64,000 bases of DNA from Fonticella tunisiensis (lineage in GTDB: Bacteria > Bacillota > Clostridia > Clostridiales > Caloramatoraceae): positions 1-64,000 of the forward strand of contig NZ_SOAZ01000006.1 of the NCBI RefSeq assembly GCF_004364155.1. Direction: 5' to 3'. Position numbers and translations under genes: made by a program. Below are positions 1 through 32,502 of this stretch, piece after piece. Positions within the stretch are counted from its first letter, which is position 1. The number at the start of each line of letters is the position of its first letter. The notes below the pieces were generated by a model. It saw only the letters and a program-made list of their open reading frames with translations, was not told where the DNA came from and did no database searches.

Positions 1-95
1 GTATGTTTGGATTAGACACCTATATCATACATGATTTTCACTATGGTTGTTATTTTTTTATTCTATCTGTTGCATTTAATTTTACAATGAACCAA
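1..95 (-). mobile_element. IS30-family element, outer end (continues off the left edge)
   Basis: These 95 bases are an exact reverse-complement copy of 31042-31136, the region upstream of the IS30-type transposase in this window. The element end lies near base 95, and the part around bases 70-93 resembles IS30-family terminal repeats (tgcatttaattttacaatga). The transposase would be read on the minus strand and would start just left of base 1, so only the upstream non-coding end is visible. The window edge falls inside the repeat, which would also be typical of a contig end. Confidence 0.8.
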
Positions 96-185
96 TAAAT
101 ATCTAAAAACAATGTGTAAAATCATAAAGTAATATAAAAGAATATGTTTAATATAATATTATAAAGTAATTCTTGAGGTTGTATC

Positions 186-1238
186 ATGGATAGAATTGTA
201 AGTATAAGCGATCTCATTAACCCAAAGGAACGTAGAAGAATCCTTGAGGTATTAAGCCATTATTCAATCATACCTGAAAAAGTTGAAAAAATTAGAAGCG
301 TTTACAAAGTAAAATGTGGTAATAGGTATTATTGTTTAAAGAAAACTAAAAATGGAGATAAAAAAGCAAAAAAAGGTATGTATCTGGTTGAATACTTGAA
401 AAGCAATGGTTTTTATAATGTTGCGGAATATATTAAAACTGAAGAAGGTAGAGAATATTTTAAAACTCAAAAAAACACCTATTATCTTATGGAGTGGATT
501 GATGGAAGAGAATGCGATGTAGAAAACTTTGAAGAACTGAAGACAGCTGTTAAAATGTTGGCGGAATTCCATATAAAATCTAAGGGATTTAGCCCAGAAG
601 GGGTTAGAGTAGAAAGCAATATAAAAAATTGGCCTGTTATGCTTCAAACCTGTAAAAAGGACCTGGATTTATTTAAACACCTTATTGAAAGAAAAAAGGT
701 ACAGACATCCTTTGATATTGATTATTATAGCTACATTGAAAAGTTTAAATCATCAATGGACACTGCAATAGATCTTCTTAAAAAATCCAATTATATGATT
801 GTTTCATCCAGGGCAAAAAATGAAAAATGCATTTGCCATGATAGTTTTTATTATCAAAATATTTTATTTGACCCAAATAATAACGTATACCTCATTGATC
901 TTGACAGCACAATTTATGATATACATGTCTATGACCTTGCAAAATTCATAAGAAGAATATTGTACAAGAAAATATATTGCTGGAATTTTGAAATAGCAAG
1001 GAAACTTATAGATGTATATTGCAGCGTAAATCCACTTAGTATTGAGGATTATGAAATACTGCTGGCATTTATTATTTTTCCCCATAAATACTGGAAGCTC
1101 GGCAGAAAAAGATACATTAAAAAGAAAAAATGGAGTGAAGATAAGTACCTCAAAAAATTAAGAAAACTGGTAAGATATATTGACAGGCAACAACACTTTA
1201 TAAATTGTTTTATTGATTATTATAAAATCAATATGTAA
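186..1238 (+). CDS. CotS-family spore coat protein / APH-fold kinase-like protein
   Basis: The 350-aa product has the aminoglycoside-phosphotransferase/CotS fold. A catalytic-loop-like motif CHDSFYYQN sits near residues 216-224 (family pattern HxDxxxxN), followed by the metal-site-like LIDLDS near 237-242. Proteins of this family (CotS, CotI, YutH, YsxE) are spore coat components or sporulation-associated kinases in Bacillus and Clostridia; the substrate is generally unknown. The start ATG follows a modest ribosome site (TTGAGG). The gene stands alone between an IS end and a terminator shared with the opposing tRNA genes. A true small-molecule kinase function is possible, but no substrate can be inferred. 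Confidence 0.75.
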   Translation: MDRIVSISDLINPKERRRILEVLSHYSIIPEKVEKIRSVYKVKCGNRYYCLKKTKNGDKKAKKGMYLVEYLKSNGFYNVAEYIKTEEGREYFKTQKNTYYLMEWIDGRECDVENFEELKTAVKMLAEFHIKSKGFSPEGVRVESNIKNWPVMLQTCKKDLDLFKHLIERKKVQTSFDIDYYSYIEKFKSSMDTAIDLLKKSNYMIVSSRAKNEKCICHDSFYYQNILFDPNNNVYLIDLDSTIYDIHVYDLAKFIRRILYKKIYCWNFEIARKLIDVYCSVNPLSIEDYEILLAFIIFPHKYWKLGRKRYIKKKKWSEDKYLKKLRKLVRYIDRQQHFINCFIDYYKINM

Positions 1239-15543: not shown

Positions 15544-15580
15544 AATAAAACCGGCCTGTTAGGCCGGTTTTATTTTATTC
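15538..15580. terminator. 20-bp-arm bidirectional terminator between the YnbB-like gene and lexA
   Basis: Arms 15538-15557 and 15561-15580 form a perfect inverted repeat around a GTT loop with a GC core (CCGGCCT/AGGCCGG) and A/T flanks. It includes the stop codons of both convergent genes. Confidence 0.9.
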
Positions 15581-16184
15581 TTCTAATGAGCCCTACTGCT
15601 TTTCCCAAAATAGTGCAGTTATCTACTATTATTGGCTCCATGTCTGGATTTTCAGGCTGTAGCCTTATATATCCATTTTCCTTATAGAAGCGCTTAACAG
15701 TAGCGCTGTCGTCGATTAATGCTACCACGATATCGCCATTATTGGCTGTTGATTGTTGTTCAACGATTATGTAGTCACCGTCAAGTATTCCACATCCAAT
15801 CATGCTTTCGCCTTTAATTTCCAGCATAAACATGTTATTTTTCATAGGAAAAAAATCGGCGGGAACAGGAAATCTGTCCTCTATATTCTCAACAGCCAAT
15901 ATAGGCTGACCAGCTGCAACTCTACCTACTATAGGCACGTTTATTATTTCCTTTTGATTTAATGTTTCATCTAAAAGCTCAATTGCCCTTGGTTTTGTTG
16001 GATCTCTTCTAATAAGTCCCTTTTTTTCAAGTCTCTCTAAGTGCCCGTGTACTGTTGAAGTGGATTTTAAACCTACAGCATTACATATTTCTCTAACAGA
16101 AGGAGGGTATCCTTTTGCAAATATTTCGCTTTTAATAAAGTCTAATATTTCCTGCTGCTTATCGCTTACTTCGGAATTTGGCAT
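15570..16184 (-). CDS. lexA: SOS repressor LexA
   Basis: The 204-aa repressor has an N-terminal winged helix (residues about 1-68, with [18 protein letters not shown]) and a C-terminal S24 autoprotease. The Ala91-Gly92 cleavage site lies in VGRVAAGQP, the nucleophile Ser127 in GESMIGCG, and Lys164 in ATVKRFYKE. RecA filaments stimulate self-cleavage and induce the SOS genes. ATG 16184 follows AAGGGG. The gene is divergent from yneA, and the shared upstream region has three SOS boxes, one covering its own -35 region, so it is autoregulated. Confidence 0.97.
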
Positions 16185-16264: not shown

Positions 16265-16293
16265 TTGACATGAGAACAAATGTTCGATATACT
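16265..16293 (+). promoter_or_regulatory. yneA promoter (sigma-A)
   Basis: TTGACA (16265-16270) and TATACT (16288-16293) have the ideal 17-base spacing. SOS box 2 fills almost the whole spacer, so LexA bound there should block RNA polymerase. Confidence 0.85.
16273..16286. promoter_or_regulatory. SOS box 2 (LexA operator in the yneA promoter spacer)
   Basis: AGAACAAATGTTCG has perfect GAAC/GTTC half-sites and lies between the -35 and -10 boxes of yneA. Confidence 0.85.
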
Positions 16294-16299
16294 TTAAAT

Positions 16300-16313
16300 A
16301 GAACATATGTTCG
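16300..16313. promoter_or_regulatory. SOS box 3 (LexA operator downstream of the yneA -10)
   Basis: AGAACATATGTTCG is a near-palindromic operator 7 bases after the yneA -10 box, 19 bases before the yneA start codon. Confidence 0.85.
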
Positions 16314-24077: not shown

Positions 24078-24123
24078 AAAAAAACAGGACAATTAACTTT
24101 AAAGCTAATTGTCCTGTTTTTTT
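24078..24123 (-). terminator. terminator of rny
   Basis: 18-base perfect arms with seven A/T at each outer end and CAGGACAATTA/TAATTGTCCTG in the stem overlap the rny stop codon. Confidence 0.9.
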
Positions 24124-25672
24124 ATTTAGCATATTCTATTGCTCTGACTTCCCTTATTACATTAACCTTTATTTGTCCAGGATATTCTAATTCATTTTCG
24201 ATTTTCTTAACTATCTCACGAGCCATCAATACAGTTTCAGCATCTGAAATCTGTTCTGGCTTTACCATTATTCTTATTTCACGTCCTGCTTGAATAGCAT
24301 AGGACTTTTCAACACCTTCAAATGAATCAGCAATTTCTTCTAGTTTTTGAAGCCTCTTAATATAAGCCTCAAGGGTTTCTCTCCTAGCTCCAGGTCTTGC
24401 AGCTGATATTGCATCTGCAGCCTGAACCAGTATAGCTTCAATAGATTGCGGTTCTATATCACCATGATGAGCAGCTATAGCATGAACCACTGCTGGAGAC
24501 TCATTGTATCTTTTTGCAAGCTCCCCTCCAAGCAGCGCATGAGGTCCTTCAACTTCATGGTCTACTGCTTTGCCAATGTCATGTAGAAGACCTGCTCTCT
24601 TAGCGAGGGCTACATCCGCTCCAAGCTCTGCAGCCATTAAACCTGCAAGGTACGCAACTTCCATAGAATGCTTTAAAACGTTCTGCCCGTAGCTTGTTCT
24701 ATACTTTAGCCTTCCTAGAAGTTTTACAAGCTCTGAATGCAAGCCGTTAACTCCGGTTTCAAAGGTTGCCTGCTCACCCTGTTCCCTTATGTCATTTTCA
24801 ACTTCTTTTTTAGCTTTTTCAACCATTTCCTCAATTCGAGCAGGGTGTATTCTTCCATCTGCAATTAATTTCTCAAGTGCTAACCTTGCGACCTCCCTTC
24901 TTATAGGATCAAATCCAGATAGGATAACAGCTTCTGGAGTATCATCTATTATAAGATCGATACCTGTGAGCGTTTCCAGCGTCCTTATATTTCTACCTTC
25001 TCTGCCAATGATCCTGCCTTTCATTTCATCATTTGGAAGGGAGACAACTGAAACAGTTGTTTCAGCAACATGATCCGCTGCACACCTTTGAATTGAGCAT
25101 GCAATAATTTCCTTAGCCCTCTTTTCGCCCTCTTCACGAGCCTTTGATTCAATATCCTTAATCATTATAGCTGCTTCATGTTTGATTTCTTTTCTAATGT
25201 CATTTAAGAGCATTTCCTTTGCCTGTTCTTGAGTTAGACCTGCTAACCTTTCAAGCTCTTCAACCTGCTTCTTGTAAAGTTCAGATATTTCATCCTGAAG
25301 ATTTTGTATATCCTGCTGCTTCTTTGTTAAGTTTTCCTCTCTTGCTTCAAGGGCTTCAACCTTCTTATCAAGAATTTCTTCCCTCTGAAGAAGTCTTCTC
25401 TCCATTCTCTGAAGCTCGTTTCTTCTTTCTCTTACTTCCCTTTCAAATTCAACTCTCTGTCTGTGAACCTCTTCTTTGGCTTCAATTATAGCTTCTTTTT
25501 TCTTTGCCTCAGCTTCTCTTTCAGCATCGGCAACTATCTTTTTAGATAATTCCTCCGCACTTTGAATTTTACCTTCGGCTATATTTTTTCTAACTAAATA
25601 ACCTATAAAAAAGGCTACAATTGCAACCAAAACACAAATAATTAGCCATATAAATGCGCTTATCCTAAACAC
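24122..25672 (-). CDS. rny: ribonuclease Y
   Basis: This membrane-anchored endoribonuclease initiates mRNA decay in Firmicutes. An N-terminal membrane helix is followed by a long charged coiled coil ([16 protein letters not shown] and on), a KH domain ([17 protein letters not shown]) and an HD domain ([15 protein letters not shown]) with catalytic His-Asp. The start is unclear. A perfect AAAGGAGGTG site is followed 8 bases later by an ATA codon (25663), which would give 513 aa, the normal family length. GTG 25672 overlaps that site, and an upstream ATG at 25762 has no ribosome site and would add about 30 atypical residues. I give the nearest legal start. Confidence 0.93.
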
Positions 25673-25893
25673 CTCCTTTTCCCATAAATTTCTTCCTATA
25701 CTTTTTATACAAACTAATGCTTTTGGATAATTATAAAAATATATATTTTTATAGTTATCCATACAATTCGCTAATTATAGAAAATGTTTTGTTAATTATA
25801 CTCAGCGAATTATAAGCATAAAAAATAATGAAAATTAAAATACAATATTTTAAATTAGCCATTATTTGTCTTTATTTTATTATAGTTTTAATT

Positions 25894-26562
25894 TTATGTC
25901 AAGTTAAGAGGAGTTACAATACTGACCCCATCTTTAAGCTCTACTCGGTAACATACATCTGCACTTTCTAAAAGATGATTATTGTGAGTAACCATAATAA
26001 TTTGCCTTTTAAAGATGGAACTAACCTGTTTAATAAAATCTGCAACATTCATTATATAATCTTCACTAACATGCTTGGCAGGTTCATCTAAAATCAAAGG
26101 GCCCTGAATTTTAGGTTCTGATATTTGCATCATGGCAATTCTTATAGCGAGGGATATAACGTCTACAACCCCGCCCCCCCTGGAATCCTGAGGCCTTGTT
26201 ACAATCTCCTGGCCATTGACTTTGGAAACCACATAAAACTCCCCTTCAATTCTGTTTGCCTTTTCTACAATTTCTATCCTGAATTCAAAGGATGGATCGA
26301 ATATATACTGTAAACACTGTGTTACCAGATGTTCCATCTGTCTTTTCGATTGTTCCCTGGCAAAATGGGATACATTTTGAAAAAGCAGCTTTACCTGAAG
26401 GAGTCTATCGCTTTTTAACTTTATCTCATTAAGTTTTTTTTCATTATCCTTTATCTGCTCAATAATATTTTCCATTTTGCCTTTTTCTTTATAGTATTCT
26501 TCTTTTTCCCTCTGAACCTGATGTTTTAGTTTATCAATATATTCATCGTACAAAACCATCAC
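25894..26562 (-). CDS. C-terminal half of a split Rad50/SbcC-like ATPase
   Basis: The 222-aa product resembles the C-terminal part of Rad50/SbcC. A coiled coil (about 10-75) comes first, then a signature-like segment DSRGGGVVDVISLA (127-140), Walker B PLILDE (155-160) with the D-loop-like PAKHVSED, and a switch histidine His193 in MVTHNNH. No Walker A is present; that motif lies in the gene at 26793-28259. The two would have to associate to form an ATP site. Initiation is at GTG 26562 or the adjacent ATG 26559. The gene follows the small coiled-coil gene with a 4-base gap. Confidence 0.8.
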   Translation of the reverse strand: MMVLYDEYIDKLKHQVQREKEEYYKEKGKMENIIEQIKDNEKKLNEIKLKSDRLLQVKLLFQNVSHFAREQSKRQMEHLVTQCLQYIFDPSFEFRIEIVEKANRIEGEFYVVSKVNGQEIVTRPQDSRGGGVVDVISLAIRIAMMQISEPKIQGPLILDEPAKHVSEDYIMNVADFIKQVSSIFKRQIIMVTHNNHLLESADVCYRVELKDGVSIVTPLNLT

Positions 26563-26566
26563 CCCA

Positions 26567-26806
26567 TTAAATATCCTTTGGGACCATGTTGTCTACTTCC
26601 ATAATGAGTTTTTCTATTTCGCTTTCCAGTTTTTTTATTTCATCATCAAGATTTTCAGGTGACACTCCCATATTTTTTAATTCCTTAATAATGTCGTTTT
26701 TTTGATTTTGAAGCTGCTCAAGTTTCGTTTCAGCTTTTATTTTTTTATTCTTTGAAGTTTCTAATCTATCCTTTAGCTCTGATAACTTTGCTTCATAATT
26801 TTTCAT
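26567..26806 (-). CDS. small coiled-coil protein in the split Rad50-like operon
   Basis: About 79 residues are almost wholly charged heptad coiled coil (KLSELKDRLETSKNKKIKAE, then ELKNMGVSPENLDDEIKKLE), with no catalytic motif. ATG 26806 is chosen because AAAGGGG lies 9 bases upstream; ATG 26815 touches that site. Its start overlaps the end of the N-terminal half gene by 14 bases, and its stop lies 4 bases before the C-terminal half gene. It corresponds in position to part of the returning coiled-coil arm of Rad50, made as a separate chain. A bridging role is inferred, not shown. Confidence 0.7.
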   Translation of the reverse strand: MKNYEAKLSELKDRLETSKNKKIKAETKLEQLQNQKNDIIKELKNMGVSPENLDDEIKKLESEIEKLIMEVDNMVPKDI

Positions 26807-28259
26807 ATACTTCATCCCCTTTAAATTCGTTTATTATTTGCTCAATGGTATGTTCTTCTATGGGCGACATGCATACCGGACATTTGCCTATTTTTTTTAG
26901 CAATGCCATATATTCATTGATATCCTCTTTAATCGATTCATTACACGTTTTTATGTTTTTAATTGTAATTTTTTCATCATGTACAATAGCAATATATTTC
27001 TGATACATCTCATACATTTTTTTATATTTTTCGGTCATACTTACAGACTCTGAAAAACTATTCATAGCTTTTTCCATCTGCTCAAACTTTTTTAAATATA
27101 CTTCTCCCTTTGTTATTCTATCACTTAAAGCAGTCATTTCATCTTTTAATTCAACCAGGTTGTTAAACTTTTTGGTATAGATTTCTATCTCATTAGTAAT
27201 AATATTTGCCTTATCTAATGTTGCAAGCTTGTTTAATACACCATATATATTTTCTAGTTCTCTGTTATATTGTGTGATTTTTCTATGATAATCTAATAAT
27301 TTATTATAATGAGAAATCATATTGATTCCATTTAAAAGCTTTAAAGTTCCCTGATCAATAAACCTTGTTTTATGAAGTATAGTTTTCTGATAATCTATGT
27401 CCTGTATAACCATTCCATATCTAGCGTTTAAATCATACAGCATGCCAATTCTTTTAACCTGTGATTCTAATAAAGAAACTGCATTTTCAGCTTTTTCAAT
27501 ACTTTTTAGCTTTTTCAGCATAATTAATGTTTCTTTCTCTTCATTTCGAAGGGTTTCATATTGATCTTTCAAATCCTTTAACTTTTTAATTCTTTCATTT
27601 TTATTTACTAAATCCATTATTATGCGTTCTTTTCTCTCTATTTCCTTTTTTCTATCCTTAAGGTATTCATACTCCTTTAGTTTATCATTTAGCTCATCTA
27701 TGTTTTTATATATTCGTTTCTCATCGCTTTGTAGATTAGATATATCCCTGTTCAATTCTTTTAATGCTTCATCAACAATATGAACTCCTACGAGCCTTCC
27801 AATTGCCTTCGCCTTTATTGAACCAGGCTGGCTTATTAAAAATGGTCCTTCAAGCTGCTCGGATAGGTTTATACTCTGGGCAGAGGATGCATCGATGTAC
27901 ATTCTTAGAATACCATGGGCCTTTAAGATTTCTTCAGGTATTTCATTCCCAAAGCCCTCAAAAACACTTTCTTTTCCTTCACTATTAATAATTTTATAAA
28001 GGTTTTTACTTTTAGTTCTCTCCCGGACTATTGTAGTATTATCGCTTAAAATCAGCGTCACTTTGCAGCTGCTTTCTCCCTGCCTGATAAAATCTGTTCC
28101 CTTGGGTTCATTGTATAATACCCATTTTAGAGCCCTTATTATTGCAGACTTTCCATTATCAGAAGGTCCGCTGATTACGTTAAGCCCATTTTCAAAACTT
28201 ATAAATGAGTTCTTGTGCGATTGAAAATTGATTAGTTCTATGCTTTTAATGTATTTCAT
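26793..28259 (-). CDS. N-terminal half of a split Rad50/SbcC-like ATPase with terminal CPVC hook
   Basis: The 488-aa product begins like SbcC/Rad50 (SIELINFQSHKNSFISF) with Walker A GPSDNGKS at residues 31-38. It has a Q-loop region (LEGPFLISQPGSIKAKAIGRL near 135-155) and then a long coiled coil (about 165-455). Cys460 and Cys463 (KCPVCMSP) match the Rad50 zinc hook CxxC. The protein ends 25 residues after the hook, so the returning coil, signature and Walker B are absent from this chain and are encoded by the next two genes. The start overlaps the stop of the Mre11-like gene by 4 bases (ATGA). Confidence 0.82.
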   Translation of the reverse strand: MKYIKSIELINFQSHKNSFISFENGLNVISGPSDNGKSAIIRALKWVLYNEPKGTDFIRQGESSCKVTLILSDNTTIVRERTKSKNLYKIINSEGKESVFEGFGNEIPEEILKAHGILRMYIDASSAQSINLSEQLEGPFLISQPGSIKAKAIGRLVGVHIVDEALKELNRDISNLQSDEKRIYKNIDELNDKLKEYEYLKDRKKEIERKERIIMDLVNKNERIKKLKDLKDQYETLRNEEKETLIMLKKLKSIEKAENAVSLLESQVKRIGMLYDLNARYGMVIQDIDYQKTILHKTRFIDQGTLKLLNGINMISHYNKLLDYHRKITQYNRELENIYGVLNKLATLDKANIITNEIEIYTKKFNNLVELKDEMTALSDRITKGEVYLKKFEQMEKAMNSFSESVSMTEKYKKMYEMYQKYIAIVHDEKITIKNIKTCNESIKEDINEYMALLKKIGKCPVCMSPIEEHTIEQIINEFKGDEVYEKL

Positions 28260-29248
28260 TTTAACACTTCCCTGCTGGAGAGTATCCTCTGTGACTCTGA
28301 AATTCTTCTTAATGCCTCGTCCTTTATCTCTTTCGGTATATTTTCTCTTAAAGCTATTTCATTTATTATCCTTTGTAGGTTTAGTTCTTCAAAATCTCCG
28401 TATGAGTTGACCTGCTGTATGAAGCGGTTAAGGGTTTGCTGTCTGAACTCTTCACGCCTTAAAATATCCCTGTCCAACACTTCATCTCCAGGTCTTGCAC
28501 AGATAAGCTCCTTAATTGTAAGCTTTATTTCATTTCCAAGTTCAATAATAAGATAGGAGGGGATCCTTTCAACCTCTGAAATAGTGTTGCTTATTCTGGC
28601 AATCGCCCCTGGATTTATAAAATATTTACCATCCATTTTCTTAATCCCAAATCCTGTATGATAATGCCCGCAAAGCGTTATATCTGCCTGTGTTTTATTT
28701 ACAATATCATCAATCAGTGTATAGGGTATGCCCTGAATAAATGGTTTATCCATAAGAAAACCATGTGCCATATGTATTGAATAATCACAATCCCTTTTAT
28801 CGGTTATATATCCCTGCCGCGACTCTGATACATCTATATCATAATAATATGAGCACCCAGTTAACTGAAGAGTAATCCCCTCTTTTTTTAAATATATTTT
28901 CTCACCCCTATAAATCAGTTTAATTATGCCTAAAGTATCTAAAAGGCCTATAATTGTTCTGTTTACAGTATCAGGGTTTTGACCATAAACGTCATGATTT
29001 CCGAGCACAGCATATATAGGTAAAGGCATTGTTTTTAATACACCAAGAAAATCCTTCACAATTGAGAGTGAGACATCTGGCCTGTCAAATAAATCCCCCC
29101 CAAATAGAACATAATCTATGGATTCTTCACTGCATACCTTTGCTATTTCTCCGAACTTTCTTTTTAATGACTCTGTAAAGTTATCTTTTCTTGACTTTGG
29201 ATTATTACCTCTTATGTGTGTATCTGTAAAATATAATAGCTTTATCAT
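28256..29248 (-). CDS. Mre11/SbcD-like metallophosphoesterase nuclease
   Basis: The 330-aa calcineurin-like phosphoesterase has all metal motifs: FTDTHI (residues 7-12), FGGDLFDRPD near 50, LGNHDVYG near 85, AHGF near 165 and CGHYHTG near 193. A C-terminal extension (about 255-330) is helical and could bind the partner ATPase. The order nuclease then ATPase is that of sbcDC operons. It overlaps recX (ATGA, 4 bases) and the ATPase gene (4 bases), so all three are translationally coupled. Likely role: processing of double-strand DNA ends with the ATPase encoded downstream. Confidence 0.85.
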   Translation of the reverse strand: MIKLLYFTDTHIRGNNPKSRKDNFTESLKRKFGEIAKVCSEESIDYVLFGGDLFDRPDVSLSIVKDFLGVLKTMPLPIYAVLGNHDVYGQNPDTVNRTIIGLLDTLGIIKLIYRGEKIYLKKEGITLQLTGCSYYYDIDVSESRQGYITDKRDCDYSIHMAHGFLMDKPFIQGIPYTLIDDIVNKTQADITLCGHYHTGFGIKKMDGKYFINPGAIARISNTISEVERIPSYLIIELGNEIKLTIKELICARPGDEVLDRDILRREEFRQQTLNRFIQQVNSYGDFEELNLQRIINEIALRENIPKEIKDEALRRISESQRILSSREVLK

Positions 29249-29874
29249 ATATCATCACTCTCACTATTTGATAGTATTTCATTCAATACTCGCTTAACTA
29301 AACCATACTCATATCCCTTTGAAATCAGATACCTGCATATTCTCTCTATTCTATCAGGCTTTTCCTTTACCAAATTAAGTTTTTTTAAAGCAAGATTATA
29401 TGCATTTTCATACTCAGTATTTTCATCTATATTGATCATTTGCAACATTTCCCCTGGTATTCCTTTATTTCCTAAATTAAATAATATTTTCTTTTTTCCA
29501 TGCTTCTTAAACCTTTGACTGTTATTTATATATTTTTTAATATATCGGTCATCATTTATGATATCATATATTTTTAACTTTTCTAATACCTTTTCAATGG
29601 TTTTGTTAGAATAATACTTTTGCTCCAACTTTCTTCTCAGTTCAGTTTCTGTATAGTCTCTTCTACCTAACAATTTCAAGCAATAGTTATAGGCCTTAGT
29701 ACCTTCACAGTTTTCAATAAGAAAGTCTAGACTATTTTGATCCAGCTTCACCCCTTCTTTTATATCATATTTAATTATATCTTCAATATCCGCTGAAAAG
29801 GTAAAGTTATTATCGATGTAAATATTGTACCTTTCATCATTTCTCTTTTGCTTTACAATGGAAGTTATAATCAA
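29245..29874 (-). CDS. recX: RecA regulator RecX
   Basis: The 209-aa RecX has tandem three-helix repeats. The family motif CLKLLGRRDYTETELRRKL lies near residue 65-85, and later repeats include YIKKYINNSQRFKKHGKKKI. RecX modulates RecA filaments. TTG 29874 is preferred as start: GAGGTG lies 6 bases upstream. The upstream in-frame ATG 29898 lies inside the recA terminator stem and has no ribosome site. The gene is 49 bases after recA and is coupled to the Mre11-like gene. Confidence 0.88.
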   Translation of the reverse strand: MIITSIVKQKRNDERYNIYIDNNFTFSADIEDIIKYDIKEGVKLDQNSLDFLIENCEGTKAYNYCLKLLGRRDYTETELRRKLEQKYYSNKTIEKVLEKLKIYDIINDDRYIKKYINNSQRFKKHGKKKILFNLGNKGIPGEMLQMINIDENTEYENAYNLALKKLNLVKEKPDRIERICRYLISKGYEYGLVKRVLNEILSNSESDDI

Positions 29875-29892
29875 AATAATCACCTCAAAATA

Positions 29893-29918
29893 AAGCATCC
29901 CTTCCTTTAGGGATGCTT
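29893..29918 (-). terminator. hairpin between recA and recX, probably a partial terminator
   Basis: Arms AAGCATCCC/GGGATGCTT with an 8-base loop follow the recA stop. The T-run is short (TTTATTTTG) and merges with the recX ribosome site, so some read-through into recX is expected. Confidence 0.65.
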
Positions 29919-29922
29919 ATAA

Positions 29923-30948
29923 TTACTCAGCCTGTGCTTCTTCTTTTTTTACTGCTGCTAAAGGCAGATTATACTTTGCCCTTATCTTGTTTTCAATTTC
30001 AAGGGCTATGTGGGGATTTTCCCTTAAAAAGTTTTTGGCATTTTCTCTTCCTTGACCTAACTTCTGTTCGTTATACGAAAACCATGATCCACTTTTTTGA
30101 ACTATATCGTTATTAACTGCGACATCTAATATGTTGCCTTCCTTAGAAATACCCTCACCATACATTATATCAAATTCAGCAACCTTGAAAGGAGGAGCAA
30201 CTTTATTTTTTACAACCTTTACCCTTGTTCTGCTTCCAAGAACATCTTCTCCCTGCTTTATCGAGTCCACTTTTCTAACATCAAGCCTTACTGATGCATA
30301 GAATTTTAACGCCCTTCCACCAGGGGTAGTTTCAGGATTACCAAACATAACGCCAACCTTTTCACGAAGCTGATTGATAAATATGGCTACACATTTTGAT
30401 TTGTTAATAGCTCCTGCAAGCTTTCTGAGGGCCTGTGACATTAATCGTGCCTGAAGCCCAACATGGGCATCTCCCATTTCTCCTTCAATTTCTGCCTTAG
30501 GTACCAGAGCAGCAACTGAGTCAATTACGATAACATCTATGGCACCTGATCTTACAAGTGCTTCTGCTATTTCAAGTGCCTGTTCACCGGTATCCGGCTG
30601 CGAAACAACAAGGTTTTCGATATCTACGCCAAGCTTTTTCGCATAAACAGGGTCCAGGGCATGCTCAGCATCCACAAAGGCTGCTGCACCTCCATTTTTT
30701 TGTGCCTCTGCTATAATGTGAAGAGCAACTGTCGTTTTACCCGAAGACTCAGGTCCGAATATTTCGACGATTCTTCCTCTAGGTACTCCACCTATGCCGA
30801 GAGCTATATCCAAATCTAAAGAACCGCTCGATATTGCCTCTACATTCAATTTTGAATCTTCACCAAGCTTCATTATTGAACCTTTTCCAAACTGTTTTTC
30901 TATCTGGCCAAGCGCTAATTCAAGTGCCTTTTGTTTTTCAATATTCAT
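29923..30948 (-). CDS. recA: recombinase RecA
   Basis: The 341-aa strand-exchange and LexA co-protease protein has Walker A GPESSGKT near residue 66, [13 protein letters not shown] (Walker B) near 140, the L1/L2 DNA-binding loops (region of [20 protein letters not shown] and [14 protein letters not shown]) and a short acidic C-terminus (KKEEAQAE). AAAGGATG precedes the ATG. An SOS box lies between promoter and gene. recX and the Mre11/Rad50-like set follow in the same direction. Confidence 0.98.
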
Positions 30949-30969: not shown

Positions 30970-30983
30970 CGAACATTTGTTCT
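30970..30983. promoter_or_regulatory. SOS box of recA
   Basis: CGAACATTTGTTCT (AGAACAAATGTTCG on the minus strand, identical to SOS box 2 of yneA) lies just downstream of the recA -10 box and 22 bases upstream of the start codon. Confidence 0.9.
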
Positions 30984-31087: not shown

Positions 31088-31935
<848 letters not shown>

Positions 31936-31983: not shown

Positions 31984-32502
31984 CTATTCCCGGGGATTCA
32001 AGAGCTTTTTGTTTTTTATTATATAATCAACACCGGATATTATAGTTATTATAACAGCGAGTGATATTAGTACATCATTATAGGGAAGCTCCATTAATGC
32101 TGCAACTATTGCAATAATTTGAGTTACTGTTTTTAATTTTCCCCACTTGCTTGCTGCAATAACAACACCTTCAGAAGCCGCTATTGCTCTTAGACCCGTT
32201 ATAGCGAATTCTCGGGCTACTATAATCATAACTACCCATGTTGGAAGTTTCTTCATTTCCACCATCGAAATAAGGGCAGCAGTTACAATTAACTTATCAG
32301 CAAGGGGGTCCATAAATTTTCCAAACCTGGTTATTTGATTTTTGCTTCGAGCGATATAACCATCAAGGGTATCTGTAAGGGCTGCTATAATAAAAACCGC
32401 TGTAGCAATATAGTTACCATATTTCACTTTTATCGCTATTATAAACAAAAATATTGGCACTAAAAAAATTCTAAGTATTGTTAACTTATTTGCAAGGTTC
32501 AT
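31984..32502 (-). CDS. pgsA: CDP-diacylglycerol--glycerol-3-phosphate 3-phosphatidyltransferase
   Basis: The 172-aa integral membrane enzyme makes phosphatidylglycerophosphate. The CDP-alcohol phosphotransferase motif D-G-x2-A-R-x8-G-x3-D-x3-D is complete (DGYIARSKNQITRFGKFMDP then LAD, near residues 47-68). About five membrane helices follow the family topology. Its start overlaps the end of rimO by 17 bases. In Bacillus and clostridia it commonly precedes recA; here the broken IS30 copy lies between them. Confidence 0.93.
   Translation of the reverse strand: MNLANKLTILRIFLVPIFLFIIAIKVKYGNYIATAVFIIAALTDTLDGYIARSKNQITRFGKFMDPLADKLIVTAALISMVEMKKLPTWVVMIIVAREFAITGLRAIAASEGVVIAASKWGKLKTVTQIIAIVAALMELPYNDVLISLAVIITIISGVDYIIKNKKLLNPRE

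Follow-up and report, generated by a model that had tools for sequence, protein, structure and literature searches.

A probable three-chain Mre11-Rad50 nuclease encoded beside recA in Fonticella tunisiensis and recurring in its phylum and in phages

Mre11-Rad50 is among the best-known machines that act on DNA breaks, and Rad50 is known as a single chain that carries both ATPase lobes and both arms of its coiled coil. In a 64,000-nt stretch of the Fonticella tunisiensis genome (contig NZ_SOAZ01000006.1, positions 1 to 64,000; hereafter the window), four adjacent genes on the minus strand very probably encode an Mre11-Rad50 nuclease whose Rad50 part is heteromeric and consists of three separate chains, a reading to which we give a probability of roughly 85%. 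The genes lie in the order recA-recX-mre11-N-cc-C-rny, and we refer to the three Rad50-like products as the N-chain, the cc (coiled-coil) chain and the C-chain. This split form is a long-lived alternative to SbcCD and not a decayed gene, and it is carried by phages too.

Four abutting genes divide the parts of Mre11 and Rad50

The Mre11-like protein contains the full phosphoesterase set of metal residues (D9, H11, D52, N84, H162, H195 and H197), located in the motifs DTH (residue 9), GGDLFD (50), GNHD (83), HG (162) and GHYH (194). In an alignment of 32 Mre11-like sequences DxH, GDxxD, GNHD, HG and GHxH are near-invariant, and the score of the window protein against the curated SbcD profile TIGR00619 falls below its cut-off (32.7 bits vs 77.65). 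The N-chain carries a Walker A motif, a Q-loop (Q135) and a zinc hook that is followed by a tail of 25 residues, while the C-chain holds a coiled coil, a signature-like motif, Walker B and a switch His within MVTH (residues 190-193; Table 1). Since Walker A occurs only in the N-chain, and Walker B and the switch His only in the C-chain, neither is a whole ATP-binding cassette (ABC) ATPase. The cc chain consists of two helices flanking an invariant Pro, in the motif LGxxPENLxxEI (alignment of 29). In PHROGs each chain has a separate family, under unlinked labels.

The genes overlap or nearly touch. Overlaps of 4 nt join recX to mre11 and mre11 to N, the spacing from cc to C is 4 nt, and N and cc overlap by 23 nt when cc is read from its first ATG or by 14 nt from its second, which yields 79 aa and is preceded by the better ribosome site, AAAGGGG. 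The C-chain measures 222 aa from its GTG start; a TTG at 26553 would give 219 aa and a better match to homologues.

A first-pass annotation of the window had proposed these four genes, and the open reading frames (ORFs), on the minus strand, and the motifs, residue by residue, were confirmed, including an Mre11-like nuclease with all metal motifs, an ATPase chain with Walker A at residues 31-38 and 25 residues after CPVC, and a free coiled coil of about 79 aa. It had also read a signature-like DSRGGG, Walker B and a switch His in the 222-aa chain; all three are present, but the Ser is not conserved and the core of the first motif is RGGG. Nearly all relatives carry [SA]RGGG here, and the conserved Ser of the LSGGE type is absent.

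In the proposed complex, the Walker A lobe would come from the N-chain along with one arm and the zinc hook; the C-chain would provide the second lobe (Walker B, signature, switch His) together with the base of the returning coil, and the cc chain a further part of that coil. The N and C lobes would form one ABC head, and two such heads would engage around ATP. An Mre11 dimer would sit at the base of the two heads, and the zinc hook would link two arms at the tip. We infer physical assembly of the chains, SbcCD-like tethering and clipping of DNA ends, and SOS induction together with recA.

The two lobes are predicted to build one Rad50-type head

At one relative's locus, L051, the three Rad50-like genes lie in one frame with only TAG and TAA between them, and a read-through of this locus was used as the AlphaFold construct. 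In the resulting model (range 1..784) both lobes build one complete Rad50/SMC head, with a predicted local distance difference test score (pLDDT) of mostly 80-95 in the lobes and 50-75 in the arm. The joint head matches solved Rad50 and SMC heads, among them 3av0_B (Rad50; Z 28.7 over 352 residues at 4.5 A), 3qku_A (Z 28.3) and 5xns_A (Z 31.5). When the N-chain of the window is folded alone, the strand at residues 26-30 before Walker A is not formed; pLDDT at this strand is about 90-94 in the joint model vs about 78-80 alone, although the two models are of different homologues, each with its own alignment. The best Foldseek rows for the N-chain alone are heads of the Rad50, SMC and RecF types, and by sequence N and C match the solved Rad50 heads that consist of two chains, 1f2t_A/B and 1ii8_A/B.

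The split is conserved across Bacillota and in phages

The three-way split is present in Clostridia, Tissierellia, Bacilli and phages. Of 397 genomes that sample the phylum evenly, taken besides that of F. tunisiensis itself, 64 (about 1 in 6) contain a C-chain relative at E<=1e-12. An alignment search with the C-chain gave 242 relatives in all, 80 of them named genome loci, which include Caloramator, Thermobrachium, Acetivibrio, Tissierella, Peptoniphilus, Thermosediminibacter and Tepidanaerobacter as well as Alkalihalophilus pseudofirmus OF4, Alkalicoccobacillus, Halalkalibacter, Thermoactinomyces vulgaris and Shimazuella. The whole block is found in most of these loci; a few have one broken gene or end at a contig edge, and in the Acetivibrio group C lies without N nearby. 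Relatives in the same class repeat the order recA-(recX)-mre11-N-cc-C-rny. Together with a PHROG family for every chain, this recurrence puts the arrangement well outside what chance would give. Viral contigs yielded 8 relatives with the C-chain alignment and none when searched with the single C sequence, and each phage-like locus examined has a match to the cc hidden Markov model (HMM) or a cc-like ORF. Strong open frames with C-chain matches are about 155-314 aa long, save three of 686-702 aa in one distant family. No close relative with a fused single-chain gene was found in the C-chain searches of family, class and phylum. In those bacterial loci whose genes are intact, the junction offsets N-cc and cc-C range from -56 to +16 nt and the frames vary, so that no shared recoding signal can account for the split.

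Three genomes (G374, G412 and G592) have second copies of the split genes (L229, L230 and L231), possibly prophage, with a higher-scoring C-chain elsewhere in the genome. In Bacillus phage vB_BboS-125, an AP2-domain ORF, possibly a homing endonuclease, sits between N and cc (L045:5026-5598).

The genes are also found far apart in some genomes. In five genomes of the family f54, which belong to the Acetivibrio group by their named matches, C adjoins folD and rny, and mre11-N-cc forms a block elsewhere, at a distance of 1.1 Mb in G238 and 0.33 Mb in G294 (closed genomes) and on different contigs in G102, G128 and G196. Microbacterium phage Magritte encodes C at 284-934 and a 350-aa N relative at 93838-94890, with about 93 kb between them.

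Conversely, several loci join the parts. Two viral loci, L188 and L189, encode Mre11 and N in a single ORF with C downstream; in L189, cc and the C-lobe are separate downstream genes. In three genomes of the family f122, a single ORF of 684-700 aa combines Mre11 (residues ~1-326), N-lobe (~337-502) and C-lobe (~514-682), without arm or hook. Such natural fusions, of Mre11 with N and of Mre11 with N and C, show that these are components of a single machine. Locus L189 is presumably Bacillus phage 0305phi8-36. Its 769-aa ORF has the same length as A7KV18, a match in the viral structure library. A 2011 paper reports A7KV18 of Bacillus phage 0305phi8-36 as an Mre11/Rad50 fusion and notes that it did not observe one of the P-loop segments (PMC3175470). 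If L189 is this phage, that segment is encoded by the separate C gene.

The split form and canonical SbcC almost exclude each other

The F. tunisiensis genome contains one N relative and one Mre11 relative. A canonical SbcC was not found in it, and there is no match to TIGR00618, a profile under whose cut-off canonical clostridial SbcC likewise falls. Genomes of the same family without the split carry SbcC-type proteins, as full-length frames of 1021 aa in G010 and 1046 aa in G008; in G009, also without the split, the SbcC match is spread over frames of 1107 and 108 aa. Across the class sample, in which SbcC was scored at E<=1e-20, it is present in 1 of 20 split genomes vs 122 of 270 others (Fisher 2e-4), and across the phylum in 2 of 64 split genomes vs 27 expected (Fisher 3e-14), both tests ignoring phylogeny. 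Several families hold the split and SbcC kinds in different genomes, and in the two genomes with both, G401 and G679, the split genes follow the phage-like order N-cc-C-Mre11. Together these results indicate that the split form stands in for SbcCD and that it and canonical SbcC almost exclude each other.

Weighing the three-chain reading against its rivals

The rival that survives best, although improbable, is that a heteromeric Rad50-like complex serves mainly in defence or in the handling of chromosomes or plasmids. It draws on the carriage by phages and on a weak profile likeness to defence ATPases (mad3, 9e-15 for C; LmuB, 6e-16 for N), but the recurring place between recA/recX and rny, the LexA box before recA and the near-exclusion of SbcC point to core repair. 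Less probable again is that the chains act independently, each in a role of its own, such as the N-chain as a DNA tether and the C-chain as the ATPase of another complex. Although the f54 C sits with folD and rny, away from mre11-N-cc, neither chain is a complete ABC ATPase, the f122 ORF fuses both lobes to Mre11, and a joint head could be modelled. That a full-length Rad50 is made through programmed frameshifting or stop read-through is very improbable: the genes overlap or lie within a few bases of each other and are in one frame in L051 and L057, but frames and gaps vary by genome, and f54 and Magritte have N and C at unlinked sites. Finally, a conventional sbcC that frameshifts or stop codons had disrupted in this genome, or that was mis-assembled, would explain fragments that are in order and abutting, and the split of L051 by TAG and TAA only, but it is ruled out by the conserved distribution, as the same three-way break occurs in most of the 80 named loci and in phages, catalytic residues are invariant, each chain has its own PHROG family, and C lies far from N in f54 and Magritte.

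Some points weigh against the three-chain reading. The signature Ser of LSGGE is replaceable, so the ATP mechanism or its sensing may differ. The correlation between trees of the chains beyond that of RecA and Rny is modest (partial r 0.59 for N-C vs 0.49 for the RecA-Rny control). Because the chains are linked artificially in the fold construct, the proximity of the lobes is partly imposed. In the L051 model, the N-arm spans about 300 residues in helices 159-457 vs 13 + 67 + 83 helical residues in the returning strand; at about 160 residues this strand is far shorter, so that a simple antiparallel coil of the Rad50 type seems unable to run the full length of the arm.

These points notwithstanding, we favour the heteromeric Rad50, which the first-pass annotation had suggested with hook and signature subunits made separately; the separate genes fit that proposal, while assembly itself is predicted from sequence and modelling. 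A simple frameshift had been held not to explain the arrangement, and the split kept across relatives, the varying junction frames and the f54 C gene standing apart bear this out. The same annotation had asked whether the N and C lobes pair in a predicted structure, as they do in the joint head (Z 28.7 to 3av0_B), whether the split recurs by gene neighbourhood, and the block does so across the class and in most of the 80 named loci, and whether close relatives carry a fused gene, of which those searches gave none.

A 47-residue repeat in the arm of the hook chain

The arm of the N-chain contains five tandem helical units of 47 residues (Table 1). Its hydrophobic profile correlates with itself at 0.77, 0.74 and 0.69 at lags of 47, 94 and 141 (mean 0, sd 0.33), HHalign aligns the units 1-47 to 1-47, and the canonical SbcC of relatives, used as a control, gives no peak at 47. 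The distance from the Q-loop/N-lobe to the hook is equal within 1-4 residues in most cellular relatives and otherwise differs by whole units: one fewer in L136, L155, L171, L184 and viral L190, two fewer in L079, and one more in L080 and L107. Some phage forms are off-step, at -2.1 to -2.2 units. The cc chain (about 77-117 aa in first-ATG ORFs) and the C-chain (mostly 210-235 aa) are without 47-residue steps.

The idea that the cc chain is an extra 47-residue unit of the opposite strand found no support, as its HHalign probability against the units is only 0.1-1.4%; against the coil of the C-chain it is 61%, which may reflect mere coiled-coil likeness. As a speculative extension that we consider unlikely as a whole, the arm of the hook chain could act like a ruler changing by whole 47-residue units, with cc supplying the opposite strand in trans, perhaps in multiple or exchangeable copies, so that a tethering ring could open at the chain junctions, unlike in one-chain Rad50.

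Neighbouring genes and regulation

The window contains four LexA-type boxes of the form GAACN4GTTC vs 0.26 expected. Those before recA and lexA make damage induction likely. Between recA and recX lies a hairpin resembling a terminator (29893-29918), a possible attenuator of recX-mre11-N-cc-C that may damp damage induction of these downstream genes. A 209-aa ORF (31118-31747, plus strand), placed between recA and a pgsA-like gene (31984-32502), resembles by eye the N-terminal part of an IS30-type transposase and is probably a remnant.

Table 1 Features of the split Rad50 locus, its surroundings and the f122 fusions (window positions unless a locus is given)
Feature	Position	Strand	Remarks
Mre11/SbcD-like nuclease, 330 aa	28256-29248	-	Pfam Metallophos 2.3e-13; ATGA overlap with recX
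N-chain of split Rad50, 488 aa	26793-28259	-	AAA_23 4.3e-11; Rad50_zn_hook 3e-4; phrog_16465 2e-79; conserved in 75 sequences
Walker A GPSDNGKS, N-chain residues 31-38	28146-28169	-	G31, G36, K37 invariant
Five tandem 47-residue units, N-chain residues ~219-453	26901-27605	-	Profile correlation, HHalign
Zinc hook CPVC, N-chain residues 460-463	26871-26882	-	C460, P461, C463 invariant in 75 sequences
cc chain, 82 aa from first ATG, 79 from second	26567-26815	-	phrog_18563 4.9e-9
C-chain of split Rad50, 222 aa	25894-26562	-	phrog_15167 2.2e-61; solved Rad50 C-lobes 1.9e-10
Signature-like SRGGG, C-chain residues 127-131	26170-26184	-	G129-G131 invariant; residue 127 is Ser or Ala
Walker B LILDEP, C-chain residues 156-161	26080-26097	-	L158, D159, E160 invariant in 32 sequences
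rny (RNase Y)	24122-25762	-	Kept downstream neighbour
recX	29245-29898	-	Upstream gene; RecX domains
recA	29923-30948	-	Head of cluster; borders the block in most named loci
LexA-type box GAACATTTGTTC	30971-30982		Between predicted recA -10 and recA start
LexA-type box	31807-31818		Beside IS30-like ORF
LexA-type boxes before lexA (15570-16184, -)	16274-16285; 16301-16312
f122 fusion	L226:3464-5518	+
f122 fusion	L227:3152-5254	-
f122 fusion	L228:3083-5170	-

Relation to known systems

A search of the open-licence PubMed Central (PMC) literature, an incomplete body, found no description of a natural split of Rad50 or SbcC, and the three-chain Mre11-Rad50 is apparently a new, widespread and undescribed variant. 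Genomes scored as lacking SbcCD may therefore hold a complete Mre11-Rad50 under uninformative labels, given a split form in about one-sixth of the sampled phylum. The natural three-chain form and the fusions, including the version without arm and hook, offer ready-made tests of what the arm, the hook and the connection between chains contribute. Provided that the identification of L189 is right, the split family also accounts for the lobe reported missing in phage 0305phi8-36 (PMC3175470).

The system resembles Rad50/SbcC with Mre11/SbcD in its succession of Walker A lobe, coil, CPxC hook, coil and Walker B lobe with an Mre11-type partner, and the best curated profiles are those of archaeal Rad50 (PRK03918, 2e-21 for N; PRK01156, 2e-11 for C), with scores far under the cut-offs. 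It differs in its three chains, in RGGG in place of LSGGE, and in an arm built of 47-residue repeats. All the indirect evidence nevertheless suggests that it would work as an Mre11-Rad50. Like the split Rad50, the Archaea-specific SMC-related protein ASRP is an SMC-type ATPase with a zinc hook, and it gives a weak profile match to the N-chain (6e-15); the available part of its description (PMC9389158) presents it, in contrast, as a single chain restricted to Archaea and describes no split. Mre11/Rad50 fusion proteins are on record from Mimivirus (R555) and Bacillus phage 0305phi8-36 (A7KV18; PMC3175470). As in these, L188, L189 and the f122 ORFs hold Mre11 and Rad50 parts on one chain, although the f122 form, unlike them, joins all catalytic parts and does so without an arm. 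The Mre11-like gene adjoins N in most named loci. A further likeness is to the engineered two-chain Rad50 catalytic domain of 1f2t and 1ii8, long-used crystal constructs made in the laboratory that lack the hook and most of the arm. There too the N and C lobes are separate chains of one head, whereas the split described here is natural and the arm is kept.

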